Shown: piece by piece, positions 4,663-21,353 of the stretch
Layout: each line of letters opens with the position of its first letter
Numbering within the stretch: position 1 is the stretch's first letter
Program-made: the position numbers and the translations under genes
NCBI RefSeq assembly: GCF_002786325.1
Contig: NZ_PGTB01000010.1
Coordinates: 1 to 64,000 of the forward strand
Source of the DNA: Pseudooceanicola lipolyticus
GTDB taxonomy: Bacteria > Pseudomonadota > Alphaproteobacteria > Rhodobacterales > Rhodobacteraceae
Direction of reading: 5' to 3'
Length of the DNA stretch: 64,000 nt
Notes under the pieces: model-generated
Told to the model about the DNA's origin: nothing
The model's database searches: none
Seen by the model: the letters and a program-made list of their open reading frames with translations, nothing else

Positions 4663-6714
4663 ATGTGGCGCATCGGGATCGATTCCGGCGGGACCTTCAC
4701 GGATGTCTGCCTGATCGATGAGAACGGCGGGGACGTGCACATCTGGAAGGTGAGCTCGACCCCAGATGATCCCTCGCGCGGAATCGCGCGCGCCTTTGCG
4801 GAGGGGCTTGAGCGATCCGGTGCCGACGCGGCCGATGTGGCGTTCTTCGGCCATGGGACGACGGTTGCCACCAATGCGCTGATCCAGCACCGTGGAGTGA
4901 AAACGGGGGTGATCACCACTGCCGGGTTCCGCGACCTGTTGGCCATCGCCCGTCAGAAGCGCCCCCATCTCTACGATATGTCCGCCGACAAGCCGCAAGA
5001 GCTGGTGCCACGCGATCTGCGCCTGGGGGTGCCCGAACGATTGCGGCGCGACGGTACGGTCGAGTTGCCATTGGACGAGGACGCCCTGCGCGAGGCCGTC
5101 CGCAACCTGGTCGAGCAGGGCGTCGAGGCCATTGCCATCAGCTTTCTCTATGCCTTCCTCTCCGATGCGCATGAACGTCGAGCCGCCGAGATCGTCGCGG
5201 AAGAGGCGCCCGGCGTCTTTCTGTCGCTCTCGCACGAGATCGCGCCGGAATTCCGCGAGTACGAGCGCCTGTCCACCACCACCGTCAACGCTTATCTCGG
5301 ACCGGTGATGCACGGCTATGTCTCGGCGCTGAAATCGCGGCTGGCGGATGCGGGGCTCCGCGTCGCTCCGCACCTGACCCAGTCGAACGGGGGCGTCACC
5401 GGCTTTGACCAGGCCGCGGCGGTCTCAGTGCGCACCGTCCTTTCCGGGCCCTCCACCGGAGTCGTCGCGGCGCAGGCGCTGGGGCTGCTGACGGGCATTC
5501 CGGACCTGATCACCTTTGACATGGGGGGAACCAGCTCGGATGTCGCGCTTCTGTCCGGCGGTACCTGCCGGCTGGTGGCCGAAGCCGAGGTGCATGGCTA
5601 CCCGCTTAAGACCCCGATGCTGGACATTCATACCGTGGGCGCCGGGGGCGGGTCGATCGCCTACGTGGACAATGGCGGGCTGCTGAAGGTCGGCCCGCGC
5701 AGCGCGGGCGCCCATCCCGGACCGGCCTGCTATGGGCTGGGATCGGATGAGCCGACGGTGACGGATGCCAACGTCGTGTTGCAGACCCAGAATCCGGAGG
5801 CCCTGCTGAACGGGCAGATGCCCATCGACCGCGACCTGTCGCTGGCGGCGGTCGGGCGACTGGCGGATCAACTGGGCCTGGGGGTGATGGAAACCGCGGA
5901 CGGGATACTCGACATTGTCACGGCGAACACGGCCAAGGCGATCCGGCTGATCTCGGTCCAGCGTGGCCACGATCCGCGCGGCTATGCCCTGGTGGCCTTT
6001 GGTGGGGCGGGACCCGTCCACGCCGCACGCTTGGCAGACGAACTGGGCATGGACCGGATCGTGATCCCGCGCACACCGGGCGTGTTGTGCGCGCTCGGCC
6101 TGCTGATGACCGATCTCCGGACCGATTACGCGACCACCCGCATCCGCCTGCTGGAGGACGTCACGCAGGAGGAGATTGTGGAAATCTTCGACGGGCTGAT
6201 GGCCCAGGCCGACGCCTGGTTCGATCAAGAGAACATCGCTCCGCAGTCCCGCAGCACCGCGCTGCGCGTCGACATGCGCTATTCCGGCCAGAACTACGAG
6301 ATCTCGGTCGATCTGCCTGGCGGGCGCATCGGACCGGACAGCCTTGCTGCCCTGCGTGATGGTTTCCTCGAGCAGCACGAGCAGCTCTATGGTTTTGTCG
6401 CGGATGGGGACGCGATCCAGATGGTGACCTGGCGCCTGCAGGCAACGGGCATGGTGCCCAAGGCCAGGATGCCCTCATTTCCCGAGGGCGGCCCGGATGC
6501 CTCGGCCGCACGCACGGGCAGCCGTCCTGTCTGGATGCGGCAGGCCGGCGGTTTTGTTGAAACGCCGATCTATGACCGCGCTGCGCTGAGCCCCGGCAAC
6601 GAGATTGCCGGCCCGGCGATCATCGACCAGCTCGACACCACGACCGTGGTGCCGCCGGGCATGACGGCCCGTGTCGATAGCCACCTGACCCTGATCCTGG
6701 AACGCAACGCATGA
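4663..6714 (+). CDS. hyuA: Hydantoinase/oxoprolinase subunit A (ATP-dependent)
   Basis: 683-residue protein of the HyuA / 5-oxoprolinase N-terminal-half family, the ATP-binding subunit that activates a cyclic amide for hydrolysis or carboxylation. The actin-like nucleotide-binding motifs are clear: RIGIDSGGTFTDV near the N-terminus, TFDMGGTSSDVALL in the middle, and GAGGGSIAYVD after it. Length matches known HyuA subunits (about 690). The stop overlaps the hyuB start by ATGA, so A and B are translated together. Related enzymes act on N-methylhydantoin, 5-oxoproline, caprolactam and acetone. The sequence alone does not fix the substrate; the neighbours suggest a cysteine-related ring. Confidence 0.92.
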   Translation: MWRIGIDSGGTFTDVCLIDENGGDVHIWKVSSTPDDPSRGIARAFAEGLERSGADAADVAFFGHGTTVATNALIQHRGVKTGVITTAGFRDLLAIARQKRPHLYDMSADKPQELVPRDLRLGVPERLRRDGTVELPLDEDALREAVRNLVEQGVEAIAISFLYAFLSDAHERRAAEIVAEEAPGVFLSLSHEIAPEFREYERLSTTTVNAYLGPVMHGYVSALKSRLADAGLRVAPHLTQSNGGVTGFDQAAAVSVRTVLSGPSTGVVAAQALGLLTGIPDLITFDMGGTSSDVALLSGGTCRLVAEAEVHGYPLKTPMLDIHTVGAGGGSIAYVDNGGLLKVGPRSAGAHPGPACYGLGSDEPTVTDANVVLQTQNPEALLNGQMPIDRDLSLAAVGRLADQLGLGVMETADGILDIVTANTAKAIRLISVQRGHDPRGYALVAFGGAGPVHAARLADELGMDRIVIPRTPGVLCALGLLMTDLRTDYATTRIRLLEDVTQEEIVEIFDGLMAQADAWFDQENIAPQSRSTALRVDMRYSGQNYEISVDLPGGRIGPDSLAALRDGFLEQHEQLYGFVADGDAIQMVTWRLQATGMVPKARMPSFPEGGPDASAARTGSRPVWMRQAGGFVETPIYDRAALSPGNEIAGPAIIDQLDTTTVVPPGMTARVDSHLTLILERNA

Positions 6715-8315
6715 GCGAGAGTCTGAACCCCGTTACCGTCGAGGTCATCGGCAGCGCGTTTTCTTCCGCTGTCGACGAAATGGGCGAGGCGCTGGTGCGC
6801 GCCAGCCATTCCACCAACATCAAGGAGCGGCGCGACTGTTCCACCGCGCTGTGCACCGCCGCGGGCGAGATCCTGTGTCAGGCCGAGCACATTCCCATGC
6901 ATCTGGGCAGCTTCCTGCAATTCGTGCCGCGCCTTTTGGCGGACTACCCGGTCGAGGAGCTTCGCCAGGGGGACGTTTTTATCGGGAACGATCCCTATGC
7001 GGGCGGCGGAACTCACCTGCCGGATATCGTGATGGCTGAACCGATCTTCGTCGATGACACGCTTTTCGGCTGGGCGATCAACACGGCGCACCATTCCGAT
7101 TTCGCCGATCGCGGCCACGCCCATATCTATCAGGAAGGGTTGCGGATCCCGCCGATCCGGCTGCAGCGCGATGGTATCAGCCAGGCGGAAGTCATGCGGC
7201 TGTTCCTGCTGAATTGCCAGGTGCCTGCGGAGCGGATGTCGGACCTGCGGGCGCAGATGGCGGCAAATCGTTTGGGCGTCTTGCGGATTCAGGAGCTGTG
7301 TGCACGCTTTGGGCCGGAGACGGTCCGCAGGGCCGGCGCGGAGTTGATGGACTATGCCGAGCGCAAGATGCGGGCGGGGATTGCTGCGCTTCCCGATGGG
7401 ACCTGGACCTTCTCGGACGTCTTCGAAACCGAAAGCCTGGTCGAGCACACGACCCTGTCGGTCGCGCTGACTGTTTCCGGTGATGAGATGCGTCTGGTTT
7501 TCGACAGCCCGGCACAGGTGCGCGCAGGACTTAACGTGATCTTCACGGCGCTGCAGGCAACGGTCTACTATGCGGTGAAATCGGTGGTCGATCCGACGAT
7601 CCTTCCAAATGCTGGGCTGGCCCGGCCGCTGACCTTGGAGGCGAAGCCCGGAACGCTGCTCAACTGTGTGCATCCGGCCGCGGTGGATGGGCGGATCTCG
7701 GCCTGTCAGCGGGTGGTTGACCTGATCCACGGCGCCCTGGCCCAGGCGGCGCCGGATCGCGTCAACGCGGCATCCTGCGGTTCCGTGCACGTCGCCAGTT
7801 TCAGCGGTACGCGGCCCGACGGCAGCATCTGGGTCTACCTCGAGACCATTGCCGGCGGGGCCGGAGCCCGGCCCGACAAGGACGGGCTGGACGCTGTTCA
7901 AGTGCACATGACCAACACATCGAACCTGCCGCTGGAGGCGCTGGAAAGCGAATATCCGATCACCCTGGTGGAGTATGAATTCGCGGAGACAAGCGGTGGT
8001 GACGGCACCTGGCTGGGTGGCATGGGGGTGCGCCGGACCTATCGTATCGAGGCTGACTGTCGGGTGCAGATCATGGGCGCGCGGCTGACCTCGCGCGCCT
8101 GGGGTCTGGACGGAGGCGGCCCTGGGGCCAGCGGCGCGTTTCGGATCAACGGTGATCCGAATGCGATCGATCTTTCCGGCAGCGCGGATCTGCGCGCCGG
8201 TGATCTGTTCGAGGTGATCACACCCGGCGGAGGCGGCCACGGGGCGCCATCGGGGCGTGCTGCAATCCTGCGCGCGGCGGATAGCCGTGCCGGACGAAGC
8301 GCGGCCCCGGCGTGA
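6711..8315 (+). CDS. hyuB: Hydantoinase/oxoprolinase subunit B
   Basis: 534-residue HyuB-family protein, the partner of HyuA that carries the ring-opening active site. Typical stretches are EMGEALVRASHSTNIKERRD near the N-terminus, the Gly-rich GDVFIGNDPYAGGGTHLPD, and the C-terminal PGGGGHGAP signature. Length is normal for the family (520-570). It starts within the hyuA stop (ATGA), and its own stop overlaps the regulator gene downstream (GTGA), giving a tight three-gene operon. The extra Ala/Arg-rich tail after the GGGGHG motif looks unstructured. Confidence 0.92.
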   Translation: MSESLNPVTVEVIGSAFSSAVDEMGEALVRASHSTNIKERRDCSTALCTAAGEILCQAEHIPMHLGSFLQFVPRLLADYPVEELRQGDVFIGNDPYAGGGTHLPDIVMAEPIFVDDTLFGWAINTAHHSDFADRGHAHIYQEGLRIPPIRLQRDGISQAEVMRLFLLNCQVPAERMSDLRAQMAANRLGVLRIQELCARFGPETVRRAGAELMDYAERKMRAGIAALPDGTWTFSDVFETESLVEHTTLSVALTVSGDEMRLVFDSPAQVRAGLNVIFTALQATVYYAVKSVVDPTILPNAGLARPLTLEAKPGTLLNCVHPAAVDGRISACQRVVDLIHGALAQAAPDRVNAASCGSVHVASFSGTRPDGSIWVYLETIAGGAGARPDKDGLDAVQVHMTNTSNLPLEALESEYPITLVEYEFAETSGGDGTWLGGMGVRRTYRIEADCRVQIMGARLTSRAWGLDGGGPGASGAFRINGDPNAIDLSGSADLRAGDLFEVITPGGGGHGAPSGRAAILRAADSRAGRSAAPA

Positions 8316-9061
8316 CCAGTTCGGGCAAGTCCTCCAACGCCGCCCGAGCGGCGCGGATCCTGGCGGCGCTGGGCGAGGCGGGGGCGAAAGGGCTCTCGCT
8401 GACCGGTCTGGCGGAAACGCTGGGAGACACCCGCGCGCCAGTGCATCGGGCGCTTGCCGCCCTGGTCGAGCATGGCTTTGTGCTGCAGTCAGGGCGGCGC
8501 GGCAACTATCACATCGGGCCCGCGATCCACGCGATCGCCATGAAGTCCGTTGCGGTCGGCGAATTGACCCGGGCGCTGCGTCCACTGCTGATCGACATCG
8601 CTGCCGAGACCGGTCTGCCGACCTTCCTTATGGCGCGGGCGGGTTTTGATTCCGTCTGCCTCGACTGGCAGAGCGGCTTCTCCACCGTGCCCGCGATGTT
8701 CGACGGGATTGGCGGTCGGCTGCCGCTGGGTGTCGGCGTCGGTGGCCTCGTCGTGCTGGGAGAGATGGATGCGGAAGGGCGTGAACAGGTGCTGCGCCTG
8801 AATGCCCCCCGATTCGCCGATTGGGGTCTGAAAGAGGCCGATATCCGCGCCGAGCTTGCGCTTTATGCCGCGCAGGGATGGCTCTTGGTCTCCCGCCGGT
8901 CCGGGGCGGTCGACATCTGCAGCCTGGCGAAACCGGTGCGTGGCGGCCACGGCGTGGAACTGGCGGTGTCCGTGCTGGCGCCGGGACGCGACATGGAAGA
9001 GGGTCTGAAGGCCCGCGTCATCGACAGTTTGTCCCGCCACTTGTCGCGGCGGGAAGTGTGA
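8312..9061 (+). CDS. IclR-family transcriptional regulator
   Basis: 249-residue regulator with an N-terminal winged helix-turn-helix (GLSLTGLAETLGDTRAPVHR, about residues 29-48) and a C-terminal IclR effector-binding GAF-like domain (about 80-245, including GIGGRLPLGVGVGGLVVL). The start is GTG, overlapping the hyuB stop. IclR proteins usually control adjacent catabolic operons and sense a pathway intermediate. Being last in the hyuAB operon suggests autoregulation through the inverted repeat at 4558-4587 (inference). It converges on the GntR gene with an 8-bp gap. Confidence 0.9.
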   Translation: MTSSGKSSNAARAARILAALGEAGAKGLSLTGLAETLGDTRAPVHRALAALVEHGFVLQSGRRGNYHIGPAIHAIAMKSVAVGELTRALRPLLIDIAAETGLPTFLMARAGFDSVCLDWQSGFSTVPAMFDGIGGRLPLGVGVGGLVVLGEMDAEGREQVLRLNAPRFADWGLKEADIRAELALYAAQGWLLVSRRSGAVDICSLAKPVRGGHGVELAVSVLAPGRDMEEGLKARVIDSLSRHLSRREV

Positions 9062-9069
9062 CGATGTCC

Positions 9070-9753
9070 TCAGCCAGCCTCTGCCTGGCGCGCGGCCAGC
9101 GCCTGTATCACCCGATCAGTGCCATCATCGATGGCTTGGCAGATGGCCTCGCCCGCCGAAGCCGGGTCTCTTGCGCGCAGCGCGGCGATCAGCGCGGCGT
9201 AATTGGCGTGTTCGGTGCGGCTCGCGCCTGGGTCGGGAAAGAGATAGTTGAAGCCCGGCCCGGCGCGCAGCCACAAAGTCTCTATTGTCTGCAGCAGGAT
9301 CGGCATCCCCGCTGCGGTATAGAGCGAAAAGCGCAGCGCCTTGTTTTCCCTCAAGGCTTCGTGGGGATCAGCGGTGTGTTTCGCTGCGATATAGGCCTTC
9401 ACGCGGGATTCGAGGGCATCGATCTCCTGGGGCGAGATCTTCACGGCCGCGGTCTCTGCTGCAAGCGTTTCAACGCGCTTTCGGATGGCGCCCAGTTCGA
9501 CATAGTTCTCGACGGTCATCACCGGAACACGGAACGAACTGGCCGGTTCCGCAGTCAGCACGCCGGAGGCAACGAACCTCACCAGCGCCTCACGCACCGG
9601 CGTGATGCTCATGCCCAGCGATTCCGCAAGCTCTTTCGTTACAAGCCGGGTGCCCGGCTCCAACCGGCCCTCGATCAGGGCATCACGCAACTGGCCCTCG
9701 ACATGGTCGGTCAGACTCTTGCGGGGCGGGGCGCTGAAACCAGTCTGCTTCAA
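9070..9753 (-). CDS. GntR/FadR-family (FCD) transcriptional regulator
   Basis: 227-residue regulator with a GntR winged helix (GRLEPGTRLVTKELAESLGM then SITPVREAL) and a C-terminal all-helical FCD ligand domain. I start it at TTG 9753, since AGGAG sits 8 bases upstream and the protein begins with the usual basic lead (KQTGFSAPPRKSLTDHV). The ATG at 9888 would add 45 unconserved residues and run the gene through the operator. It is divergent from the binding-protein gene. The 15-bp palindrome between them recurs at 20266, so this protein is the best candidate regulator of the whole transport/catabolic island. Confidence 0.88.
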   Translation of the reverse strand: MKQTGFSAPPRKSLTDHVEGQLRDALIEGRLEPGTRLVTKELAESLGMSITPVREALVRFVASGVLTAEPASSFRVPVMTVENYVELGAIRKRVETLAAETAAVKISPQEIDALESRVKAYIAAKHTADPHEALRENKALRFSLYTAAGMPILLQTIETLWLRAGPGFNYLFPDPGASRTEHANYAALIAALRARDPASAGEAICQAIDDGTDRVIQALAARQAEAG

Positions 9754-9813
9754 AAAGTATCTCCTGCGAAAGCATCTGTTCGGACAAAGGCGGCGAAAGC
9801 TTGTCGTGATGAT

Positions 9814-9828
9814 GATATATGATATATT
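9814..9828. promoter_or_regulatory. Probable GntR operator, copy 1
   Basis: GATATATGATATATT contains the perfect palindrome ATATAT-G-ATATAT (9815-9827). It lies between the divergent GntR and binding-protein genes. An exact reverse-complement copy lies at 20266-20280, between the two other divergent units of the island. With flanks included, 21 of 25 bases match. Binding by the FCD regulator is inferred from position and symmetry. Confidence 0.72.
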
Positions 9829-9909: not shown

Positions 9910-11397
9910 ATGAAATACCTACCGGCCTTCGCCCTGGGACTTGCGCTGGCGTTTCCAGCGTCAGCGACACTTGCACAGAACGGTACGCTCGTCATCGGAC
10001 GTTCGGCAACGACCAACGCAATGGACCCGGGGTTTCTTCGGGAAGCCGCAACTATCGTCGACAATATCTTCGACACGATGGTCATGCGCGATACCGAAAT
10101 GAACTTGGTCCCCGGGCTGGCAACCGAATGGACAGCGGTCGACGACACGACCTGGGAATTCAAGCTGCGTGAGGGTGTCACCTTCCACAATGGCGAACCC
10201 TTTGACGCAGAAGCGGTGAAGTTCAGCCTCGAGCGTGTTCTGAACCCCGACAATAACGCGCCGACGATCTCCTACATCCGCACGATTTCCTCGGTCGAGG
10301 TGGTGGATCCGATGACGGTACGCATCACGACCTCGGCGCCCGATCCGCTTCTGCCGACGCGGATGAGCCGCTATCCCGCCTATATCGTGCCGCCGAAGTA
10401 TATCGAGGAGAACGGCCAGGACCACTTCGCCAACCATCCGGTCGGTACCGGCGCCTACACATTCGTCGATTTTGTCCCGGACGAGCGCGTCACGCTGGCC
10501 GCCAACCCCGACTACTGGCGCGGCACTCCGGATATCCAGACCGTGATCTGGCGCCCGATTCCCGATGCCACGGCGCGGATCACCTCGCTGATCACCGGAG
10601 AGGTCAACCTGATCGAGGATGTGCCCGTTGATCTGGTGTCGCTGCTGGAACAGACCCCCGATGCCGACCTGGTTCAGGTCAAGAACGGCGGCCTGACGAT
10701 CTATCTCGGCCTGCGCATGGACAAGGCACCGCTTGACAACGTCAAGGTGCGTCAGGCGCTCGATCACGCCATCGACCGGGTGTCGATCACCGAAAACCTG
10801 TTGGGTGGTCTTGCAACGCCGAAGGGCACGCAGGTTGGCGCGGCCGATTTCGGCTATCTCGATCTGCCTGTACCGGCCTACGATCCCGAACTCTCCAAGA
10901 CGCTGCTGGCCGAGGCCGGCTTTCCGGATGGTTTCGAGATCACCATGCAATCGTCCTTCCGCTACATGAAAAACGCCGAAGTTGCGCAGACCATCGCGCA
11001 GCAATTCGAGGACATCGGCCTGTCGGTGAATCAGGAAACCATGGAATGGTCGGTCTACACGCAGACCGTGCCGTTCGAGGGACCGATCTATATGCTGGGC
11101 TGGGGGTCCACCCAGACGCTTGACGCCGACGCCGCGATCTATGCGATTATGAAGTCGGGCGAGCCTTATTCAGGCGCCTCGATCCCGGAGCTGGATGCCC
11201 TGTTGGACGAGAGCCGCTCGACAGTCGATCCGGATGCTCGCGAGAAGATCCTGCAAGACATCCAGGCTCTGGCTGCCGAACAGGTGCCGTTGATCACGCT
11301 CTATCAGGAAGACAAACTGATGGGTAAAGCGCCCAACGTTGAATTCGAGGGTCGTGCCGACGCGCGGATCCCGGTTTTCGAAATCAAGATGGACTGA
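9910..11397 (+). CDS. ABC transporter substrate-binding protein (peptide/opine type, family 5)
   Basis: 495-residue periplasmic binding protein of the DppA/OppA (SBP_bac_5) family that delivers a small peptide-like solute to the permeases. It has a Sec signal peptide ending near residue 22 (FPASATLA) and the family segments LREGVTFHNGEPFDAEAVKF, VGTGAYTFVDFVPDERV and RQALDHAIDRVSI. An AACAGGAGTGAATAAAAC ribosome site precedes the ATG. It heads the rightward operon binding protein-permease-permease-M20-OCD-rhodanese and lies about 80 bp after the palindromic operator. Confidence 0.93.
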   Translation: MKYLPAFALGLALAFPASATLAQNGTLVIGRSATTNAMDPGFLREAATIVDNIFDTMVMRDTEMNLVPGLATEWTAVDDTTWEFKLREGVTFHNGEPFDAEAVKFSLERVLNPDNNAPTISYIRTISSVEVVDPMTVRITTSAPDPLLPTRMSRYPAYIVPPKYIEENGQDHFANHPVGTGAYTFVDFVPDERVTLAANPDYWRGTPDIQTVIWRPIPDATARITSLITGEVNLIEDVPVDLVSLLEQTPDADLVQVKNGGLTIYLGLRMDKAPLDNVKVRQALDHAIDRVSITENLLGGLATPKGTQVGAADFGYLDLPVPAYDPELSKTLLAEAGFPDGFEITMQSSFRYMKNAEVAQTIAQQFEDIGLSVNQETMEWSVYTQTVPFEGPIYMLGWGSTQTLDADAAIYAIMKSGEPYSGASIPELDALLDESRSTVDPDAREKILQDIQALAAEQVPLITLYQEDKLMGKAPNVEFEGRADARIPVFEIKMD

Positions 11398-11401: not shown

Positions 11402-12241
11402 GTGACCGGACGTTTGCGCCTCAAGGGGAACGAGGATGCCGCCTTGGCGATCGTCCTGCTCATCGCTGCCGTTCTGTTCTGTGTGCTGGTGCCGCTGGCC
11501 TGGCCGCTGGATCCGCTGCGCGGTGACATCTCCGCGACGTTCAAACCTCCGATGACGCTGGTGGGGGACACGTTGCACCCCCTCGGAACCGATCAGCTCG
11601 GGCGAGATCTTCTCGCCCGGCTGGGGCTCGGGACGCTGGTCTCTTTCGGGATCGTCCTCGTCGCGGCGCTGATTTCGGTCGTGCTGGGAACCGCGCTCGG
11701 CATGATCGCGGGTTATTTCGGCGGCTGGGTGGACGCGCTGATCATGCGCCTTGTCGACATCCAGCTTGCCGTGCCCTTTATCCTTCTGATCCTGCTTCTG
11801 GTCTCCGTTCTGGGGCCGTCGATGACAAACCTGGTGATCGTGCTGGGGCTGACGGGCTGGGCCATCTTTGCCCGTGTCGCACGGGGCCGAACGCTGGAGG
11901 TGCGGGAATTGGAGTACATCGACGCCTCGCGCGCCATGGGGCTTTCGGATATGGCGATCATCTTCCGTCATGTGTTGCCCAACATCATCGGCCCGCAAAC
12001 CGTGTTGCTGACGTTGGATCTGCCAAGGCTGATCATCCTCGAGGCCTCGGTCGGTTTTCTGGGCCTCGGGGTCCAGCCGCCGATGCCGACGCTGGGTAAC
12101 CTGATCGGCGAGGGTCGGTCGGTTATTCTGATCGCCAATTGGCTTGTCCTTTACCCGGGCCTGATGATCGGGGCTCTGGTCATCGGCTGTAACCTCTTCG
12201 GCGACTGGCTGGTCCGCCGAGCCGAAAGCAAGGTGTCCTGA
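11402..12241 (+). CDS. ABC transporter permease (DppC type)
   Basis: 279-residue inner-membrane permease with the DppC hallmark HPLGTDQLGRDLLARL after the first membrane span and the EAA loop SRAMGLSDMAIIFRHVLPNI. About six hydrophobic segments are visible. The start chosen is GTG 11402, four bases after the binding-protein stop; an earlier ATG (11339) would overlap that gene by about 60 bp. The stop overlaps the next permease ATG by one base. The DppC-then-DppB gene order is the reverse of the usual one. Confidence 0.9.
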   Translation: MTGRLRLKGNEDAALAIVLLIAAVLFCVLVPLAWPLDPLRGDISATFKPPMTLVGDTLHPLGTDQLGRDLLARLGLGTLVSFGIVLVAALISVVLGTALGMIAGYFGGWVDALIMRLVDIQLAVPFILLILLLVSVLGPSMTNLVIVLGLTGWAIFARVARGRTLEVRELEYIDASRAMGLSDMAIIFRHVLPNIIGPQTVLLTLDLPRLIILEASVGFLGLGVQPPMPTLGNLIGEGRSVILIANWLVLYPGLMIGALVIGCNLFGDWLVRRAESKVS

Positions 12242-13161: not shown

Positions 13162-14483
13162 CCAGCTTGCTGCCAGAAGCGTTGGAACTCACCGCGCGCT
13201 GGTGTGCCATCCCCTCGCATGCGGGCGATCGACCGGCACAGGCCCGGATGGCCGCCACGCTGCTGGACTGGCTCACATCCGAACTGGGAGCGCAGATCAT
13301 TGCGCCCGGCGACGATCGGGGGGAAACCCCGGTGATCCATGCCCGGATCGACACCGGTGCGGAACGGACCGTGATCCTCTACAACATGTACGACGTCATG
13401 CCCGCCACGGCCGAGGGCTGGCGAGTCGATCCCTGGACCGGTGGGCACGCCCGGCTGGACGGAATCGGCGAAGTCTGGATCGGACGTGGCGCCGAGAACA
13501 ACAAGGGCCCGCTTGCGGGAATGCTGGTGGCGCTGCGCGACCTGCATAACCGGGGTCAGCTGGGGGTCAATGTCGAGATCCTGCTCGACGGAGAGGAGGA
13601 GCAAGGCTCGCCCTCGATGCGCCGCTATCTTGCAGCGCCAGATTGCCCATTGCCGCATTGCGCCGGGGGTCTCTTTCCCAGTTTTTGTGAATATGGCGGG
13701 GGGGCGCCCCGCATCTACCTCGGCTTTTCCGGGATCGCCAAGGGGCGGTTGGTCGCGGAGGGCGGGGAATTCGGTGGCCCGCGCAGCGCCATCCATTCCA
13801 GCAACGCGCCCTGGATCGCCAATCCGGCGCGTCTGCTGGTCGACGCTTTGGCCGGCTTTGGCGGGGTCGCGACCGGCCAGCTGGATCAGATCGAACTCGA
13901 CGCCGAGGCCGAAGCGTTGATTGCCGAGCTGGCGGACACCTTCGATCCGGAGGATGAGCTGATGTTCCGGACCGCCGACCGCTATGCCCTCGACGGCGGC
14001 GCCAGGGAGCTGCTGCGCCACGTGTTGCGCACCGCCTCGCTGAACATCTCTTCGCTGATGACGATGCCCTCTGGCGATACTGCCGTAATCCCGCCACGGG
14101 CCGAGGCGCTGTTCGACCTGCGAACCCCGCCCGGGCAGCAGGCAGAGACCTGGCTGGAAAACCAGCGCGCCCGCTTCCATGGAACCCCTGTACGGCTGGA
14201 GGTCGGCGAGATCGCCCCCGGCGTCCGCTTCCGTGCTGACAGTCCCGGTGTTGCGGCCTTGCGGGCGGCCTATGCCGCGACGTCGACGGCGCCGCAGGTT
14301 TGGCCCTGGGCCATCGGCTCGGCGCCCGGACATGCCTTTGCGCGCCATGCCGACAGTTTCCTGATCGGTGGCGCTGGGCGCGGCGGCCATGCGCATGGCA
14401 TCGACGAGTTCCTGGTGATTGAAGGCCTTGGCCGCTTCATCGCATCGGTGCAGACATGGCTGGGCCGGATGGGGCCGCTATGA
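13158..14483 (+). CDS. M20-family amidohydrolase/peptidase with altered metal ligands
   Basis: 441-residue member of the M20 (ArgE/DapE/ACY1, carboxypeptidase G2) fold. The start is GTG overlapping the permease stop. The general-base region LLDGEEEQGS (Glu146-148) and the C-terminal His (GRGGHAHGIDEF) are kept. The first metal-ligand motif, usually HxDxxP, reads MYDVMP (Met77 for His), and the DDKG-type motif reads ENNKGP (Asn114 for Asp). Either this subfamily uses one metal or none, or it coordinates metal differently. Context suggests hydrolysis of an N-acyl or N-carbamoyl amino acid released by HyuAB (inference). Confidence 0.83.
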   Translation: MTSLLPEALELTARWCAIPSHAGDRPAQARMAATLLDWLTSELGAQIIAPGDDRGETPVIHARIDTGAERTVILYNMYDVMPATAEGWRVDPWTGGHARLDGIGEVWIGRGAENNKGPLAGMLVALRDLHNRGQLGVNVEILLDGEEEQGSPSMRRYLAAPDCPLPHCAGGLFPSFCEYGGGAPRIYLGFSGIAKGRLVAEGGEFGGPRSAIHSSNAPWIANPARLLVDALAGFGGVATGQLDQIELDAEAEALIAELADTFDPEDELMFRTADRYALDGGARELLRHVLRTASLNISSLMTMPSGDTAVIPPRAEALFDLRTPPGQQAETWLENQRARFHGTPVRLEVGEIAPGVRFRADSPGVAALRAAYAATSTAPQVWPWAIGSAPGHAFARHADSFLIGGAGRGGHAHGIDEFLVIEGLGRFIASVQTWLGRMGPL

Positions 14484-15442
14484 GCGAACTTTTCCTGACG
14501 AAAGATGACCTGCTCGCCGCCGGAGCGCTCGACTGGGATGCGGCGCTGGCTGACATCCGCGATGCGCTGGCCTTGCTGCGGAGTGGCGAGGCGGTGATGG
14601 CGGCAGAAAACGTCCTGCCGCTTGGCCCGGACCCGCGGGACAAGGGCTATGGCTTGCCGGCGCGCGTGGGTGGACGATTTAACGCCGCCGGCCTGAAGTG
14701 GACGCTGCACCGGGCCGAGACCCCGGCGGGTGGCGAGGCCATCACCTCCCGCACCGTGCTGAACGATCTCGGTACCGGGCAGGCGATGGCGATCCTGGAC
14801 AGCGCCATGCTGACCCGCGTGCGGACAGCAGCCTTGTCCGGCGCAATTGTGCGAGCGCTGGTGCCGGGGGTGAAACGTCTTGCCGTTCTTGGCGCCGGGG
14901 CGCAGGCGCGGATGCATCTCGACATGGCGCTGGCGCTGTTTCCCGACCTGCGCCAAGTGCACCACTGGACCCCGTCGGGCCGCGCGTTGGCGGATAACCT
15001 GCCCGAAGGGATTGCGCTTGTTGCCCATGACACGCCGACAGCGGCCAGTCTTGCCGGAGAGGTGACGTTCGCCTGCACCTCCGCGCCCGAGCCGTTTCTG
15101 GGCCCGGTGGTCATGCGTCCGGGCACCTTGCTGCTGCAGACTGGCTATCACGAGGTCAGCTTTGACGCGATCGACACGGCGGATGCGGTGACCTGCGACC
15201 TGTGGGGCGAGTTCGCCCGCACCAGCGCCAAGAGCCTGTTCCAGATGTACCGGGCCGGGCGCTTTGCCGAAAACCGCGTGGCCGCCGACGCCGCCGCGAT
15301 TCTGCTGGACGGTTGGCGGCCCGCGCCAGACGCCTGCATCTATTTTTCCAGCTTCGGGCTGAACATCTTCGACATTGCCTTCGCCGCGCGCCTGACGCGG
15401 CGGGCGGCGGATCTCGGCCTTGGGCTGACGCTTGCCCCGTGA
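14480..15442 (+). CDS. Ornithine cyclodeaminase / mu-crystallin family (ketimine reductase-like)
   Basis: 320-residue NAD(P)-dependent enzyme of the OCD/mu-crystallin family. It contains the Rossmann motif LAVLGAGAQARMHLDMA (about residues 133-149) and the N-terminal substrate region with GLKWTLHR. The ATG overlaps the M20 stop (ATGA). Members interconvert cyclic imines and amino acids: ornithine to proline, reduction of ketimines and thiazoline carboxylates, or alanine/tauropine-type dehydrogenation. Family membership is firm. The exact substrate is unknown, and reduction of an S-containing cyclic imine is a hypothesis drawn from neighbours. Confidence 0.85.
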   Translation: MSELFLTKDDLLAAGALDWDAALADIRDALALLRSGEAVMAAENVLPLGPDPRDKGYGLPARVGGRFNAAGLKWTLHRAETPAGGEAITSRTVLNDLGTGQAMAILDSAMLTRVRTAALSGAIVRALVPGVKRLAVLGAGAQARMHLDMALALFPDLRQVHHWTPSGRALADNLPEGIALVAHDTPTAASLAGEVTFACTSAPEPFLGPVVMRPGTLLLQTGYHEVSFDAIDTADAVTCDLWGEFARTSAKSLFQMYRAGRFAENRVAADAAAILLDGWRPAPDACIYFSSFGLNIFDIAFAARLTRRAADLGLGLTLAP

Positions 15443-15463
15443 CCATTGGAAAGGATCGACCTT

Positions 15464-16285
15464 ATGACCGTGACCATCTCTGCAACCGAGCTCATCGCAC
15501 GTTTGGACGAACCGGGCCTCGTGCTTGTCGATGCGCGTTCGCAGGAGGAATGGAAGCAGGCGACCTTGCCGGGTGCGATCTTCGTCAATGTCTATGACTA
15601 TTTCGTACCCGAGAGCACTGAGCAGGGGTACGCAGGGATGGCGGCGGGTGCGGCACGGGCCTTTCGCGAGGTGGGGCTCGGCCAAGCAAAAACGGTCGTC
15701 TGGTTCGAGGAGGAGACCGGGATGCGGTCACCGCGCGGCCTGTGGTTCCAAGAGCTTTTGGGGCTGGAGGGCGGCCTGATCCTCGACGGTGGTCTGCAGG
15801 CCTGGGTCAAGGCAAACTGCACCCTGGCACCGGGTGAGGGGGCGGCGGTCGACATCACCCATGGCGCAGGGCCTGCGCCCGAGGGCTGGCGGCCCGAGTT
15901 GGCCCTGACCCGCGAGGCCCTGTTGCATCCCGACCAAGATCTGCAAATCTTCGATGTGCGCCGCCCGACGGAATTCGATGGCAGCTTTGCCCATGACTGC
16001 TGTGCGCGTGGCGGCCGCATTCCCGGCGCGTTGTTCGAGTTCTACGAGGACATGTTGCGCGATGGAAAATACCGCCCAGCGGAAGAGATCCGGGCCGGCG
16101 CGCTTGCTGCCGGGTTGGATCCGGATAAGCCCGTGGTCACCTATTGCCACCGGGGCGCCCGCGCCGCCACGGCGCTCTACGGGTTGCGGCTGGCAGGTTT
16201 CCGGGATGTCGGGATTTTCGTGGGGTCGTGGCACGAATGGGCTGCGGACGAGACCCTGCCGATGGAAACCGGCGCCGCGGTCTGA
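15464..16285 (+). CDS. Tandem-domain rhodanese sulfurtransferase
   Basis: 273-residue protein with two rhodanese domains. The N-terminal one (1-130) is catalytically dead, with WFEEETGMRSPR where the Cys loop should be. The C-terminal one carries the active loop VTYCHRGARAAT with Cys228. The basic CHRGAR loop looks more like thiosulfate:cyanide sulfurtransferases than 3-mercaptopyruvate enzymes (CGSGVT). ATG 15464 has GGAAAGG ten bases upstream. It is last in the rightward operon and converges on the oxidase gene with a 4-bp gap. A role in handling sulfane sulfur from cysteine breakdown is inferred. Confidence 0.86.
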   Translation: MTVTISATELIARLDEPGLVLVDARSQEEWKQATLPGAIFVNVYDYFVPESTEQGYAGMAAGAARAFREVGLGQAKTVVWFEEETGMRSPRGLWFQELLGLEGGLILDGGLQAWVKANCTLAPGEGAAVDITHGAGPAPEGWRPELALTREALLHPDQDLQIFDVRRPTEFDGSFAHDCCARGGRIPGALFEFYEDMLRDGKYRPAEEIRAGALAAGLDPDKPVVTYCHRGARAATALYGLRLAGFRDVGIFVGSWHEWAADETLPMETGAAV

Positions 16286-16289
16286 GGCG

Positions 16290-17627
16290 TCACAGCCAGG
16301 ACTGCAGCTGCAGACGCCCGTCCTTGAAGCGTGAGAAGCGGAAGTCGGCAAGGTCGACCTCCGATTCCGCGCCGGTCGCAAGGGCGGCCAAGGCCACGCC
16401 CGCGCCGGGGCCGATCCCGAACCCATGGCCGGAAAAGCCGGTGCCGATGATCAGCCCCGGCAAAGCCGGAACTTCGGAGATCACCGGGATAGCGTCCGGC
16501 GTCACGTCGATCATCCCGCCCCAGGCCTGCTCCCGCTGGAGGCCCGCCAGCGCCGGAAAACGATCGGCGAGCCTGTCCTTGACGCGGGCCAGGGCAGTGG
16601 CATCCGGGGTCGGGTCGAGGATGCGGTGTCGTGTCAGGCTGCGCTCGAGCGCTCCAGCACTCGCCAGCCAACCGAGTTCCCGCAGGGTGCCGCGCCCGAT
16701 CCGCAGCTTCATCCCCCGGAACGTGCTGCGCAGACCCGGCAGGAAGGCCCGCAGGTATCGCAGGCTGTCGGGCACGATCTCGGCGACCATCGTGTCGGAA
16801 TTTGCCGCGACCAGCCCGCCGTCAGCGCGGTGCCGCAGCGCCAGATCGCCCAGGGACAGGCAGGACGAGAACGCCCGCCGTTGCTCGGGCGACAGCGGCT
16901 CCGTCCGGCAGACGGAAGAGAGCACCTTGAGTTGCGGCAGCGAGATCCCAAGTCGGTGCAACAGCGCTGAGGTCCAGATGCCGCCGGCCAAGACGACGCG
17001 CTTGGTGGCGATGCGCCCCCGTTCGGTGCGCACTCCGCTGATGCCTTTGGCATCCCGTTCGATCTCATACGCGGCGCACCCCTGCAGCACGGTTGCCCCG
17101 GCCGCGATTGCAAGCCGGGCGAAAAGAGGTGCCGCCACCTGCGGTTCCGCCCGCCCGTCGCCGGGGAGATAAAGCGCTGTGGCGTAATCCGCGTTCAGGC
17201 CAGGGGCCAGGGTCTTCACATCTGCAATTTCTGCGCGGATGCCCAACCGGGTCGCCTCGGCCACCCAGCGGCGGTGGCGGTCTGCCTGTTCTGGACTGCG
17301 TGCGACATAGGCGATGCCGCATTCCACATAGCCAAGCTCGGGTCCGATCTCTTCGGCCAGGGCCTGCCAGCGGCTGCGGGCGACCTTCGACAGGGGCAGT
17401 TCGCGCAGATCGCGGCCGGCCTGGCGCACCCAGCCCCAGTTGCGGCTGGATTGTTCACCGGCAATCACCCCTTTTTCCAGCAGGCACACGTCGTGACCGG
17501 CGCGGGCGAGTTCCAGCGCGGTGGTGACACCTATGACGCCGCCACCGATAACCACGACATCCGCCGCAGCGGGCAAGTCGGTTGCGCCGGTTACGCCCAG
17601 GACGGCAGGCCCGCGGTTGGGGATCAT
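16290..17627 (-). CDS. FAD-dependent amino-acid oxidase (DAO family)
   Basis: 445-residue flavoprotein with the N-terminal dinucleotide-binding motif DVVVIGGGVIGVTTALELAR and the family's ARAGHDVCLLEKG strand-loop. The C-terminal GTGFSGHGFGIGPGAG closes the FAD site. Relatives are D-amino-acid, glycine, sarcosine and opine oxidases/dehydrogenases. QSSRNWGWVRQAGRD near the flavin is typical of a subset annotated as FAD-dependent oxidoreductases in amino-acid catabolism. It ends the leftward operon ATPase-SDR-oxidase, 1 bp after the SDR stop. Substrate unassigned. Confidence 0.86.
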   Translation of the reverse strand: MIPNRGPAVLGVTGATDLPAAADVVVIGGGVIGVTTALELARAGHDVCLLEKGVIAGEQSSRNWGWVRQAGRDLRELPLSKVARSRWQALAEEIGPELGYVECGIAYVARSPEQADRHRRWVAEATRLGIRAEIADVKTLAPGLNADYATALYLPGDGRAEPQVAAPLFARLAIAAGATVLQGCAAYEIERDAKGISGVRTERGRIATKRVVLAGGIWTSALLHRLGISLPQLKVLSSVCRTEPLSPEQRRAFSSCLSLGDLALRHRADGGLVAANSDTMVAEIVPDSLRYLRAFLPGLRSTFRGMKLRIGRGTLRELGWLASAGALERSLTRHRILDPTPDATALARVKDRLADRFPALAGLQREQAWGGMIDVTPDAIPVISEVPALPGLIIGTGFSGHGFGIGPGAGVALAALATGAESEVDLADFRFSRFKDGRLQLQSWL

Positions 17628-17628
17628 C

Positions 17629-18321
17629 TCAGAAGCAGTCCTCTACGTCATAGTGCACCGGGATCTCGGCCAGGCTTGCCGAGGGGCCAAGCTCGAGCAC
17701 CATCCGGGTGATCCGGGCGATTTCTTCCGGGCTGGTCTTGCCATGGCCGTCGGTGCCCGAGGCGGCGCGCCCCATATCGGTGGCGACGAAGCTGGGACAG
17801 ATGGCGGTTGCCCGTACTCCGCTGTCGCGTCCCGCCTGGCGCAACGCATGGCTCAGGCCGACAAGGGCGAATTTCGACATTCCATAAAGGCCGGAACTTG
17901 GGGACTTGATCCGCTTGCCCGACAGTGACGCAATCGTGACGATGCGGCCGGGGCCCTGTTCCAGCAGCGGCCAGGCGGCCTGCGCCAGGCGCATCGGAGA
18001 CTTGACGTTGACTTCGAACAGCCGGTCGAATTCTTCGCCCGTGGCCTCAAGGACCGAACTTGTGCTGTGGATGCCCGCATTCAGTACGAGTCCGTCGAGC
18101 CGTCCGAAGCGCGCCCGCGTGGCGTCGACCCAGGCGGTTTCGCTTTCAGGGTCGGTGGCGTCGAACCGGCAGTTCAACACGTTGTCCGAGGCCGGCAGGG
18201 GGCTGGCGGAAGGGTCCCGCAGCCCAAGGCTGAGGTTCCAGCCAGCCGCGTGCATCTCGGCGGCGGTGGCGGCGCCGATGCCGCGGCTGGCACCGGAGAT
18301 CATGACGACCAGGCGGTTCAT
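17629..18321 (-). CDS. Short-chain dehydrogenase/reductase
   Basis: 230-residue classical SDR. The NAD(P)-binding motif ISGASRGIGAATAAEM lies near the N-terminus, with LVLNAGIHS in the centre and the catalytic IVTIASLSGKR plus YGMSKFALVG (Tyr and Lys) following. I start it at ATG 18321, which overlaps the ATPase stop (ATGA). The alternative start 14 codons upstream adds non-family sequence. It is co-transcribed with the fused ATPase and the FAD oxidase. The carbonyl or alcohol substrate cannot be told from sequence. Confidence 0.9.
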   Translation of the reverse strand: MNRLVVMISGASRGIGAATAAEMHAAGWNLSLGLRDPSASPLPASDNVLNCRFDATDPESETAWVDATRARFGRLDGLVLNAGIHSTSSVLEATGEEFDRLFEVNVKSPMRLAQAAWPLLEQGPGRIVTIASLSGKRIKSPSSGLYGMSKFALVGLSHALRQAGRDSGVRATAICPSFVATDMGRAASGTDGHGKTSPEEIARITRMVLELGPSASLAEIPVHYDVEDCF

Positions 18322-20177
18322 GCCGGGATGCCGGTGGCCTGTTGCGCGATCTCCTCGGACCATTCCGGCCCCGGAACTTGGACCCTGTGACCAGGCGAGA
18401 CCTCACGCCATTCACGTCTTGGCGGCACGTAATCCATTGGCCGCACCGGGCTTTTGAGTTCGCGCACGTCGAGGCCCCGGCGCATGCCCCGGCGGCCGGG
18501 GTCCGGCACGGGGACAGCCGAAAGAAGACGGCGGGTGTAGGGGTGCTGGGGGTTCTCGAAGATCGCGGCGCGCGGTCCGATCTCGACGATTTCGCCCAGA
18601 TACATCACCGCAACCCGGTGGCTCATGCGTTCGACCACCGCCATGTCGTGACTGATGAAGAGATAGGACAGGCCCATCTCTTCCTGCAGGTCGAGCATCA
18701 GGTTGATCACCTGTGCCTTGATCGACACGTCCAGCGCCGACACCGCTTCGTCTGCGACGATCAGGCTCGGCGTCATTCCCAGTGCGCGGGCGATGCACAG
18801 GCGCTGGCGCTGTCCGCCCGAGAATTCGTTGGGAAAGCGTTTCGCCATGTCGGCCTTCAGCCCGACCTTTTCCAGCAGGTCGGCGACCCGGTCCGGCGCT
18901 TCGGCGCGCGATACCAGGCCGTGTGTCAGCATCGGCTCGGCGATGGCGCCGCCAATCCGGGCGCGCGGATCGAGGCTGGCGAAAGGATCCTGGAAGATCA
19001 TCTGCATCTTTCTGCGATGCGGGCGGATGGCGCGACGGGACAGGCCCAGAAGTTCGGCGCCATCAAGTTTGACCGAGCCGCCTTGCGCCGGCGTGAGGCC
19101 GATGATCGAGCGCCCGGCCGACGACTTGCCGCAGCCGGATTCGCCCACCAGCGACAGCGTCTCGCCGGGGCGGATATCGAAATCGATGCCCTCGACAGCA
19201 TGAACGCGGCCGGCACCACGCCCCAACATCCCGCCCGAGATCTGGTAGCGCGTGGTAAGTCCGCGCACTTCCAGAAGCGGTGCGGCCGTTGGATCGACTT
19301 CCGAGGTGACAGGGCGGGCCGGCACCGGTTGACCGGTCTCCGGTGCAATCAGGGGGAATCTTGCGGGGCCGGTATCACCGCGCATGGACCCCAAACGCGG
19401 CACGGCCGACAGAAGCGCGCGGGTATAGGGCTGCCGCGGGGCGGCAAAGAGGGTATCGGTTGGGCCCTGTTCGACGGCCTTGCCCTTGTACATGACAAAG
19501 GTCCGGTCGGCGACTTCGGCGACCACACCCATGTCATGGGTGATGAACAGGACGGCCATGTCCTCTTCTTCCTGCAACACCTTGATAAGCTCGAGGATCT
19601 GCGCCTGGATCGTGACATCCAGGGCTGTGGTCGGTTCGTCCGCGATCAGAAGACGGGGCCGGCAGGCCAGCGCCATGGCGATCATGAAGCGCTGCCGCAT
19701 CCCGCCCGAGGATTGGTGCGGGTATTCGCCCATCCGCTGCCGCGCGGCAGGGATGCGCACCCGTTCAAGCAGTCGCTGTGTCTCGGCCATCGCCTCGGAC
19801 TGGGCCATGCCCCGGTGTGCCACCAGCACCTCGGCAATCTGCTCGCCGATCTTCATCGACGGGTTCAACGAGGTCATCGGCTCCTGGAAGATCATCGCAA
19901 TGTCATTGCCGCGCACTCCGCGCATCTCGGCTTCGGACAAGGTTAGCAGATCGCGGCCTTCAAGCAGAACTTTGCCGCGTGTCCGGCTGTTTTCTGGATC
20001 GAGCAGGCGCATCGCGGCAAGCGAGGTCACGCTCTTGCCCGAACCGCTTTCTCCGACAAGGGCAAGTGTCTCGCCGCGCGCGATCACGAATGAAACGTCG
20101 TGCACGACCGGGGACCAGTCGTCACGGCCCCGGAAGGCAATCTCGAGGCCGGAGACGGAGAAAACTGGCTGGCTCAT
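18318..20177 (-). CDS. Fused dipeptide-type ABC transporter ATPase (DppD-DppF)
   Basis: 619-residue protein holding two full nucleotide-binding domains, equivalent to DppD fused to DppF. Walker A motifs are GESGSGKSVTS and GESGCGKSSAG, and signature motifs are SSGGMRQRF and FSGGQRQRL. Each half ends in the oligopeptide-ATPase C-terminal extension. The start ATG 20177 begins directly at MSQPVFSVSGLEIAFRG; upstream ATGs exist, to 20249, without better ribosome sites. It completes the importer whose binding protein and permeases are encoded 8 kb away on the other strand. Operator copy 2 lies about 90 bp upstream. Confidence 0.92.
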   Translation of the reverse strand: MSQPVFSVSGLEIAFRGRDDWSPVVHDVSFVIARGETLALVGESGSGKSVTSLAAMRLLDPENSRTRGKVLLEGRDLLTLSEAEMRGVRGNDIAMIFQEPMTSLNPSMKIGEQIAEVLVAHRGMAQSEAMAETQRLLERVRIPAARQRMGEYPHQSSGGMRQRFMIAMALACRPRLLIADEPTTALDVTIQAQILELIKVLQEEEDMAVLFITHDMGVVAEVADRTFVMYKGKAVEQGPTDTLFAAPRQPYTRALLSAVPRLGSMRGDTGPARFPLIAPETGQPVPARPVTSEVDPTAAPLLEVRGLTTRYQISGGMLGRGAGRVHAVEGIDFDIRPGETLSLVGESGCGKSSAGRSIIGLTPAQGGSVKLDGAELLGLSRRAIRPHRRKMQMIFQDPFASLDPRARIGGAIAEPMLTHGLVSRAEAPDRVADLLEKVGLKADMAKRFPNEFSGGQRQRLCIARALGMTPSLIVADEAVSALDVSIKAQVINLMLDLQEEMGLSYLFISHDMAVVERMSHRVAVMYLGEIVEIGPRAAIFENPQHPYTRRLLSAVPVPDPGRRGMRRGLDVRELKSPVRPMDYVPPRREWREVSPGHRVQVPGPEWSEEIAQQATGIPA

Positions 20178-20265
20178 GAAGCGGTCCCGTTGGTTCGATT
20201 GAGCGTAGTCGCTGTCCCGCCTGGCCGGAAGCATCATGTTCGGCGACACGGGGGTTGCTGTTCAT

Positions 20266-20280
20266 AATATATCATATATC
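20266..20280. promoter_or_regulatory. Probable GntR operator, copy 2
   Basis: AATATATCATATATC is the exact reverse complement of the site at 9814-9828. It lies in the divergent promoter region of the fused ATPase operon (leftward) and the D-cysteine desulfhydrase-like gene (rightward). Sharing of the site implies joint control of four transcription units by one regulator. Confidence 0.72.
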
Positions 20281-20351
20281 CTCATGTATGAGCCCCGCGT
20301 TTGCAAGGGAAATCGGATCCACGGGGCAGGATCACAGGGAAAGGACCGAGG

Positions 20352-21353
20352 ATGAAACTTGACGACCTGCCGCGCATCTCGCTGGGCTTTCTGCCGACAC
20401 CGGTAGAGGAACTGCCTACGCTTGGCGCTGAACTTGGCATTTCGCTGTCGGTGAAACGCGATGATTTCACTGGCTTTGGAGGAGGTGGCAACAAGGTCCG
20501 CAAGCTGGAGTTCCTGATGGCCGATGCCGTGGCGCAAGGCGTCAAGGTGGTGATCACCACGGGGGGGCACCAGTCGAACCATGCGCGGATGACCGCAGCT
20601 GCTGCCCGAAAATTCGGCATGAAGCCAATCCTCGTGCTGCGCGGCAACAAGCCGGCAAGCTGGCAGGGCAACCTTCTGCTGGATCACATCCTGGGGGCGG
20701 AAGTGGATTTCCTCGATCCCGACGCCTATTTCGAGCTGATCAATCCGCGGATGCAACAGTATGCACAAGAGGCGGAGGCCCGAGGCGAGAAAGCATACAT
20801 CATCCCCCTGGGCGGGGCGAGCGCGCTTGGCGCGATGGGCTACGTGAACGCAATCCGTGAGCTGTCCGAGCAATACGCAGCCACGGGTCGCAAGGCACCG
20901 GATTATATCTGCGCACCGGTCGGATCCGGGGGGACGCTGGCCGGCATGGTCGTGGGCTGCTCGATCTGGATGCCGGACACGAAAGTCATCGGCGTTGCGG
21001 TTACCGGCAGTGCAACCCCCTTCGAAGAGCGGATCTCGGTCATGGCGAACGACGCTGCCGAACTTCTTGGACTGGAGCAGCGGTTCGCCCCCGAAGACAT
21101 CCGGATCGAGAATGATTATATCGGCGCCGGTTACTCCATCCCGTCCGAATCCGGCAACGCGGCGATCCTGCGCGCAGGCCGGTCCGAAGGCGTGTTGCTG
21201 GATCCGGTCTATACGGGCAAGGCGATGGCGGGCATTGTCGGTCTTGCTGAACGCGGCAAGATCGAGAAGGGCTCGGACGTTCTGTTTGTGCATTGCGGCG
21301 GCACTCCGGCGCTGTTCCCCTTCAACGATCAACTGACGGCCGACGTCGCGTGA
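20352..21353 (+). CDS. D-cysteine desulfhydrase / ACC-deaminase family PLP enzyme
   Basis: 333-residue fold-type-II PLP enzyme. The motif GGGNKVRKLEF (Lys48 the likely Schiff-base lysine) and TTGGHQSNHARM match the DcyD/ACC-deaminase family, and APVGSGGTLAGMVVG binds the cofactor phosphate. D-cysteine desulfhydrase gives pyruvate, H2S and ammonia; ACC deaminase gives 2-oxobutyrate. The sequence does not settle which, but with rhodanese and an amino-acid oxidase nearby D-cysteine is favoured (inference). ATG 20352 follows AAGGACCGAGG. It is divergent from the ATPase operon across operator copy 2. Confidence 0.85.
   Translation: MKLDDLPRISLGFLPTPVEELPTLGAELGISLSVKRDDFTGFGGGGNKVRKLEFLMADAVAQGVKVVITTGGHQSNHARMTAAAARKFGMKPILVLRGNKPASWQGNLLLDHILGAEVDFLDPDAYFELINPRMQQYAQEAEARGEKAYIIPLGGASALGAMGYVNAIRELSEQYAATGRKAPDYICAPVGSGGTLAGMVVGCSIWMPDTKVIGVAVTGSATPFEERISVMANDAAELLGLEQRFAPEDIRIENDYIGAGYSIPSESGNAAILRAGRSEGVLLDPVYTGKAMAGIVGLAERGKIEKGSDVLFVHCGGTPALFPFNDQLTADVA

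Follow-up and report, generated by a model that had tools for sequence, protein, structure and literature searches.

Bacillus operons dedicated to the salvage of S-(2-succino)cysteine and S-alkylcysteine combine an importer, an M20 protein and a flavin monooxygenase, and serve the use of sulfur-containing amino-acid derivatives. A gene island that can be set beside them occupies positions 4,663 to 21,353 of a 64,000-nucleotide stretch of the Pseudooceanicola lipolyticus genome (contig NZ_PGTB01000010.1), the whole of which is referred to below as the window. Unlike the Bacillus operons, the island has no acetyltransferase, relies on another importer, and carries in addition an OCD/mu-crystallin superfamily protein (OCD protein) and a tandem rhodanese. 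Judged from its sequence and from those of its relatives, it appears on balance to be a catabolic regulon under GntR control, devoted to a peptide-sized amino-acid derivative that contains sulfur and is taken up from outside. In the portions of the literature consulted, nothing relevant to such a cluster or to its candidate substrates was found.

A conserved core and its operator

A plasmid search with the OCD protein revealed the same core genes in Paracoccus, Rhizobium, Ewingella and Pantoea. Together with the window and 70 species loci found by scanning a genome collection with OCD patterns, six plasmid matches gave a set of 77 loci, which are not independent (L007, L008 and L018, from Paracoccus, are near-identical) and among which absences are upper bounds, as several contigs stop within the cluster. 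One short locus, L006, was excluded from this set yet included in the alignments of the M20, rhodanese, FAD-dependent DAO-family and SDR-family proteins and in the identity correlations. The core, comprising a dipeptide-type importer, the M20-fold protein, the OCD protein, a pyridoxal phosphate (PLP)-dependent enzyme (PALP) and the tandem rhodanese, is repeatedly seen across Rhodobacterales, Rhizobiales, Enterobacterales and further groups, and is a gene set common to plant-, soil- and sea-dwelling bacteria. M20 and OCD genes occur in all 77 loci and are always codirectional, with nothing between them in 39 loci, PALP in 34, and PALP-hyuA-hyuB in 4. PALP is found in 69 loci (it is carried on another contig in L015, one of the eight without it, leaving 7), the GntR regulator in 68, the rhodanese in 59 and a 3-mercaptopyruvate sulfurtransferase (MST)-type protein in 7. 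This recurrence argues that the grouping is not due to chance. Within the window's own family and order, the system is rare, with 2 of 295 genomes detected by OCD and 2 of 390 by M20, the own genome being included in both counts.

Profile matches recovered all the proteins named in the preliminary description of the island, namely HyuAB, the importer, the M20 and OCD proteins, the tandem rhodanese, an FAD oxidase, an SDR and PALP. Two regulator genes had been missed: an IclR-family gene on the plus strand (8312..9061; PF09339), which overlaps hyuB, and a GntR/FCD gene on the minus strand (about 9070..9753; PRK11414, 160 bits, below the cut-off of 225), whose start is placed near 9753 because the longest frame reaches 9888 and crosses the operator described below. 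The dipeptide-type ATP-binding cassette (ABC) importer is complete in the window. It comprises a family 5 solute-binding protein (SBP; 9910..11397, plus strand; PF00496, 319 bits; GsiB, 194 bits, below the cut-off of 594), two permeases on the same strand (A, 11402..12241, PF00528, with a start chosen from relatives in a frame open from 11339; B, 12241..13161, PF00528/PF19300) and two ATPase domains fused in a GsiA-like product (18318..20249, minus strand; PF00005 twice; GsiA, 812.7 bits, cut-off 1077). The PALP gene (20352..21353, plus strand, its probable start lying inside a frame open from 20301) is divergent from the ATPase gene.

The GntR-SBP intergenic regions have a common palindrome, ATATATNATATAT, of which each of the island's two divergent intergenic regions has an exact copy: one lies between the GntR and SBP genes (ATATATGATATAT, 9815..9827) and the other between the ATPase and PALP genes (ATATATCATATAT, 20267..20279). 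The first region leads into GntR and into importer-M20-OCD-rhodanese, the second into ATPase-SDR-DAO and PALP. Against the two exact copies seen, the expectation for the window is 0.06 (shuffles, up to two mismatches); the pair was recovered independently by a repeat scan, and these are the only exact copies in the 5.2-Mb assembly. Across the loci, 60 of the 68 GntR regions carry a match to the operator with no more than one mismatch, and 65 a match with no more than three; of 1127 random regions of the same length from the same loci, which possibly include the second site, 24 match with no more than one mismatch. With one mismatch and the Enterobacterales variants allowed, 122 sites were found in 1.59 Mb of loci, 106 of which are accounted for by the GntR side (60) and the ATPase side (46); at least one site is present in 64/77 loci and at least two in 50/77. 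The conserved core and the shared operator thus bear out the earlier proposal that import and breakdown form one system, and the position of its gene suggests that GntR is the protein binding the palindrome. In three loci from Bosea and Halotalea (L053, L056, L067), the GntR-SBP region holds a variant palindrome, AGAATATATTCT, in place of the common operator.

Exact copies were also counted genome-wide in 26 related genomes chosen from the 70 species loci. By coordinates, 47 of the 51 copies fall inside cluster loci, the Acetobacter sites at TonB-dependent receptor genes being counted in, and the reversed palindrome, used as a control, has no copy in any of the 26 genomes. One outlying copy belongs to Aureimonas AU4, whose cluster has no rhodanese; located on a contig separate from the cluster (L142, 212-3325), it stands ahead of an MST-type gene, whose product is 67% identical to the cluster MST, with a BisC-like gene (47%) coming next on that strand. 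Another, in Jiella mangrovi (L143, 1215-4957), lies away from the cluster upstream of a second dipeptide-type importer. The remaining two, from Acetobacter fallax, are A/T at their centre and probably due to chance; a transposase gene lies near one of them. The near-confinement of the palindrome to cluster loci, together with the AU4 copy preceding MST-type and BisC-like genes, supports an organosulfur regulon. If its specificity is confirmed, the operator would mark nearly all target genes by itself, offering a direct route to the inducer and the substrate.

In Acetobacter, operator sites also lie between hyuA and M20 and upstream of a TonB-dependent receptor gene, which they adjoin in L074, L076 and L077. 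No ABC importer was found within these three loci, and an MFS transporter gene stands beside the receptor gene in L074 and L076.

In the organosulfur regulon considered here, GntR would bind the palindrome and repress transcription until the compound, or a product of it, binds GntR. The compound would be taken in by the ABC importer and, in relatives endowed with an S/N-oxide reductase, its oxidised form would first be reduced; HyuAB, where present, would open an amide or lactam bond using ATP. A cysteine-type amino acid might then be released by the M20-fold protein, predicted to be devoid of a dinuclear metal centre, together with the SbnB-like OCD protein, which would oxidise a C-N bond with NAD(P) or act on an imine; from this amino acid PALP would eliminate the beta sulfur group to yield pyruvate, ammonia, and sulfide or a thiol. 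The DAO and SDR-family proteins may process amino- or keto-acid by-products, and the rhodanese (or MST) may accept sulfane sulfur. Such a regulon would give plant-associated and marine bacteria a transferable means of acquiring sulfur.

Proposed sulfur release and the reduced loci

PALP belongs to TIGR01275 (308 bits, cut-off 289.4), a family shared with D-cysteine desulfhydrase, the D-cysteate sulfo-lyase CuyA and XcbE, and the catalytic residues of these enzymes are kept. K65, S92, Y278, Y304 and T305, which include the PLP lysine and active-site positions, are present in 68/68 sequences. At the last of these positions, Glu is characteristic of 1-aminocyclopropane-1-carboxylate (ACC) deaminase and Thr of the desulfhydrase type. 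In the ACC deaminase 1rqx, a Glu follows the conserved Tyr (DPVYEGK). An ACC deaminase role was therefore rejected, Thr305 being found in all 68 sequences and the window protein reaching 212.7 bits against a cut-off of 392, so that the desulfhydrase-type assignment first made for this product still looks the better one. In contrast to the Thr of solved D-cysteine desulfhydrase chains, position 332 is a Cys in 64/68 PALPs. A 49% PALP relative was observed in Rhizobium CB3060, a Leucaena isolate (L100, 8181-10966), beside a PatB-type C-S lyase, a Rid protein and an amino-acid importer, a context that did not settle the substrate of PALP.

The tandem rhodanese (15446..16285, plus strand) matches PF00581 in two stretches, with the active-site Cys loop, CHRGAR, in the second domain and an extra conserved CC; CHRGARA is found in 60/60 sequences at least 40% identical to it. 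Against the 3-mercaptopyruvate sulfurtransferase profile PRK11493 (cut-off 250), the window rhodanese scores 99.5 bits and the MST-type protein of L027 237.6 bits. The two sulfurtransferase types are mutually exclusive, none of the 77 loci carrying both. Eleven loci have neither, a number reduced to 8 by MST-type genes on other contigs in L031, L036 and L042, the CHRGAR type not having been searched genome-wide. In 15/77 loci, the cluster is joined by a BisC-type S/N-oxide reductase, whose score (916 bits) is below the family cut-off of 1018 and whose substrate may be an S- or an N-oxide. The sulfur chemistry proposed in the preliminary description gains support from the mutual replacement of rhodanese and MST, from this reductase and from the invariant Thr of PALP. 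Rhodanese relatives of about 33% identity were also seen in Pseudosulfitobacter, in a different gene context.

Several observations weigh against the organosulfur regulon. An exact copy of the operator is missing from four of the 26 genomes and from the surroundings of hyuA (hyuAB-iclR) in the window, whose first 30 kb yielded no BisC-type gene. The window PALP passes the broad family cut-off only, and falls below those of all D-cysteine desulfhydrase, CuyA, XcbE and ACC deaminase profiles (at most 235.5 bits against 429-610 for the PRK03910 D-cysteine desulfhydrase equivalogs). Rhodanese domains have roles other than sulfur transfer elsewhere. Six loci (L029, L030, L035, L048, L062, L063) contain permease or importer genes, M20 and OCD, with neither PALP nor rhodanese. 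Whole-genome searches of these six revealed no cluster-type PALP and no MST-type protein beyond matches of 40-44%, L063 being a short contig and the CHRGAR-type rhodanese having been outside the scope of these searches. Sulfur release is thus not universal, and the reduced loci show that this branch is dispensable. In five of them the GntR region could be read: the operator is weak in L029, L030, L035 and L062 (3-6 mismatches) and has one mismatch in L048, a pattern that fits a joint loss of the sulfur-release branch.

The same reduced loci are also what would be expected of a sulfur-free, opine- or aminopolycarboxylate-type pathway. There, an N-carboxyalkyl amino acid would enter through the importer and have its secondary C-N bond split by the SbnB-like protein, a diamino acid would be the substrate of PALP as an ammonia-lyase, and the role of the rhodanese would be ancillary. 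The OCD protein is nearest to SbnB and CmnK, both involved in L-2,3-diaminopropionate formation, and a luciferase-like monooxygenase (LLM) gene is near in 6/77 loci, the one product classified belonging to the NtaA/DmoA family. Such a pathway is nevertheless considered rather unlikely, as it leaves aside the retention of two mutually exclusive sulfurtransferase types, one of which occurs at a distant site with the same operator, the co-occurrence of the S/N-oxide reductase, and the resemblance of PALP to enzymes acting on cysteine, cysteate and coenzyme M.

The M20-fold and OCD proteins

M20 enzymes such as VcDapE have a dinuclear site in which a His and a Glu/Asp bind metal 1, an Asp is bridging, and a Glu and a His bind metal 2, the ligands being given as H68, E164, D101, E136 and H239 (PMC4012986). 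The island product (13134..14483, plus strand) has an M20 fold, its AlphaFold model (pLDDT 91.6) having Sso-CP2 as best match (Foldseek E 8.6e-30, TM 0.83). As in Sso-CP2 and carnosine dipeptidase-type peptidases, Glu155, Glu156, His421 and His221 are retained. Unlike in these enzymes, three of the five ligands are invariantly replaced, by Met85 at the His position (77/77 sequences with a residue there), Asn122 at the bridging Asp (78/78) and Pro182 at the third ligand, Asp/Glu (78/78); Cys185 is invariant as well. An ordinary metallo-M20 amidohydrolase is thereby ruled out, and with it the plain amidohydrolase label that the gene had received. The product rather looks like a metal-dependent peptidase type that has lost most of its metal site.

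Among 15 M20 paralogues from the same genomes, both the His and Asp motifs could be read in L111, L112, L114 and L117, and the His motif alone in L105 and L113, the remaining nine being wrong frames or other subfamilies; L114 keeps the GHYD, ADDKG and EGEEE motifs. The Met/Asn/Pro pattern was found in 9/9 distant relatives outside the regulon, from Cytobacillus, Gemmatirosa and seven genomes of the window's phylum (L088, 9962-11344; L089, 6001-7149; L093-L099), all with the metal ligands missing, which suggests a wider, metal-poor M20 subfamily. Should the cysteine S-oxide pathway considered below be right, the subfamily would be a new enzyme class extending beyond the regulon, with members in Bacillota and Gemmatimonadota. 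Such M20-like proteins should not be annotated as metallo-hydrolases, and they raise the question of what an M20 fold does without metals. A search for metal-free M20 enzymes found nothing relevant in the part of the literature consulted.

The OCD protein (14480..15442, plus strand, with an inner start preferred in a frame open from 14456) is a member of the OCD/mu-crystallin family (PF02423, 62.5 bits, cut-off 24). First described as a mu-crystallin or ketimine-reductase type, it is nearest to SbnB (69 bits against 36 for mu-crystallin), which is also the best match of its model (pLDDT 93.3). SbnB and CmnK are its closest relatives in sequence and fold; it differs from them in its low identity (22%), in a score of 124.4 bits below the SbnB equivalog cut-off (TIGR03944, 326.9), and in being accompanied by PALP, of the desulfhydrase type, and by the M20-like protein instead of by SbnA. 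Lys81 and Arg123, positions with a known role in the OCD superfamily, are invariant. A C-N oxidoreductase or imine role seems plausible.

From these proteins one could imagine an undescribed route for the breakdown of a cysteine S-oxide, either cyclic or bound in a peptide: the S-oxide reductase would reduce the sulfur, amide or imine cleavage, a new kind of step, would fall to the SbnB-like OCD protein and a metal-free M20-fold partner, and PALP with rhodanese or MST would release the sulfur. This proposal is unlikely to be correct as it stands. Compounds of this kind include thiomorpholine S-oxides (of the cycloalliin and chondrine kind) and the gamma-glutamyl cysteine sulfoxides of plants and mushrooms.

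HyuAB, the FAD oxidase and neighbouring genes

The hyuA gene (4663..6714, plus strand; PF01968/PF05378/PF19278) encodes an ATP-dependent hydantoinase/oxoprolinase-type subunit resembling the caprolactamase subunit CapA, and hyuB (6711..8315, plus strand; PF02538, 547 bits) the hydantoinase B/oxoprolinase subunit. Both are full length, HyuA having N-terminal, middle and C-terminal domains, and their best solved chains are N-methylhydantoinase and 5-oxoprolinase. They differ from caprolactamase CapAB in falling below the equivalog cut-offs (616.5 bits against 1000 for HyuA and CapA). The FAD-dependent DAO-family oxidase or dehydrogenase gene (16290..17627, minus strand; PF01266, 231 bits) and the SDR-family oxidoreductase gene (17629..18363, minus strand; PF00106) follow the ATPase gene. 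Across the 77 loci, hyuA was found in 25, hyuB in 24, SDR in 25 and DAO in 19. HyuAB and the DAO had been rightly placed in the island, and are accessory by these counts.

Within the set of OCD, M20, PALP, rhodanese and SDR, pairwise identities are correlated (Pearson 0.83-0.97; Spearman 0.51-0.84), as they are within the set of DAO, hyuA and hyuB (0.85-0.98 by Pearson, 0.74-0.87 by Spearman); between the two sets the correlation is weaker (Pearson 0.60-0.85, Spearman 0.34-0.69). Rows below 40% identity for rhodanese, 35% for DAO and 50% for SDR were dropped from the alignments of these proteins. The correlations point to two modules, the separation being less clear-cut by Spearman than by Pearson. 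In sequence terms, HyuAB and the FAD oxidase are best described as a second, mosaic and accessory module. HyuB falls into two well-supported types, W (9 rows, including the window) and R (12 rows), within a tree whose deep branches are long and whose joins are unsure; the HyuB of L011, L069 and L072 is unrelated to either.

Whether the window holds two adjoining pathways, the GntR core and, independent of it, HyuAB (plus DAO) under IclR control and acting on another, non-sulfur amide, bears directly on this module. This arrangement, compatible with an organosulfur regulon, is a minority possibility. It would account for the two exact operator copies of the genome both lying away from hyuA, for the correlations of DAO with hyuA (0.91) and of hyuA with hyuB (0.98), higher than those with the core, for the nine type-W rows all coming from Rhodobacterales, and for Paracoccus L007 and L008, in which HyuAB and DAO flank a second importer. 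Upstream of hyuA, a perfect 9-nt inverted repeat, ATCGGAACA-N12-TGTTCCGAT (4558-4587), is perhaps a candidate IclR site; it is not kept in that form in five relatives checked. Against separate pathways, 4 loci have type-R HyuAB placed between PALP and OCD, in rhizobia it follows PALP immediately, hyuA and M20 share an operator-bearing divergent region in Acetobacter fallax (L077), and the window DAO is downstream of the operator-bearing ATPase start. From the placements of types W and R and from this shared region, HyuAB-type genes appear to have been recruited to the core at least twice. That two HyuAB types accompany a single core, type R within the operon, is the chief reason to regard an amide-opening step as relevant to the pathway.

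The substrate first proposed was a thiazoline or thiazolidine carboxylate, or a cysteine hydantoin, opened by HyuAB, processed by a mu-crystallin-type protein and ending in D-cysteine cleavage. Although compatible with the gene set and the PALP residues, this scheme is quite improbable: the OCD protein is SbnB-like, no sequence feature favours a thiazolidine over another sulfur compound, and the S/N-oxide reductase of relatives suggests an oxidisable sulfur. The ring-opening argument is further weakened by HyuAB being found in only 25 of the 77 loci, leaving 52 without it, and by its lack of an operator in the window. Raphanusamic acid, ergothioneine, cycloalliin, beta-lactams, djenkolate and opines were considered as substrates, and none gained specific support.

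A tRNA-Ser gene (anticodon tga, 4121-4210) lies just 5' of the island. A tRNA-linked mobile island was unsupported, a tRNA being found in 0/12 related loci searched and no copy of its end being listed in a scan of 4081-24000 for repeats of at least 18 bases. Elsewhere in the window are genes for polysaccharide biosynthesis and export (30187-39173; Wzy_C, Wzz, Poly_export, Polysacc_synt, DegT) and a gene for a protein bearing RTX-type calcium-binding repeats (60291-62045).

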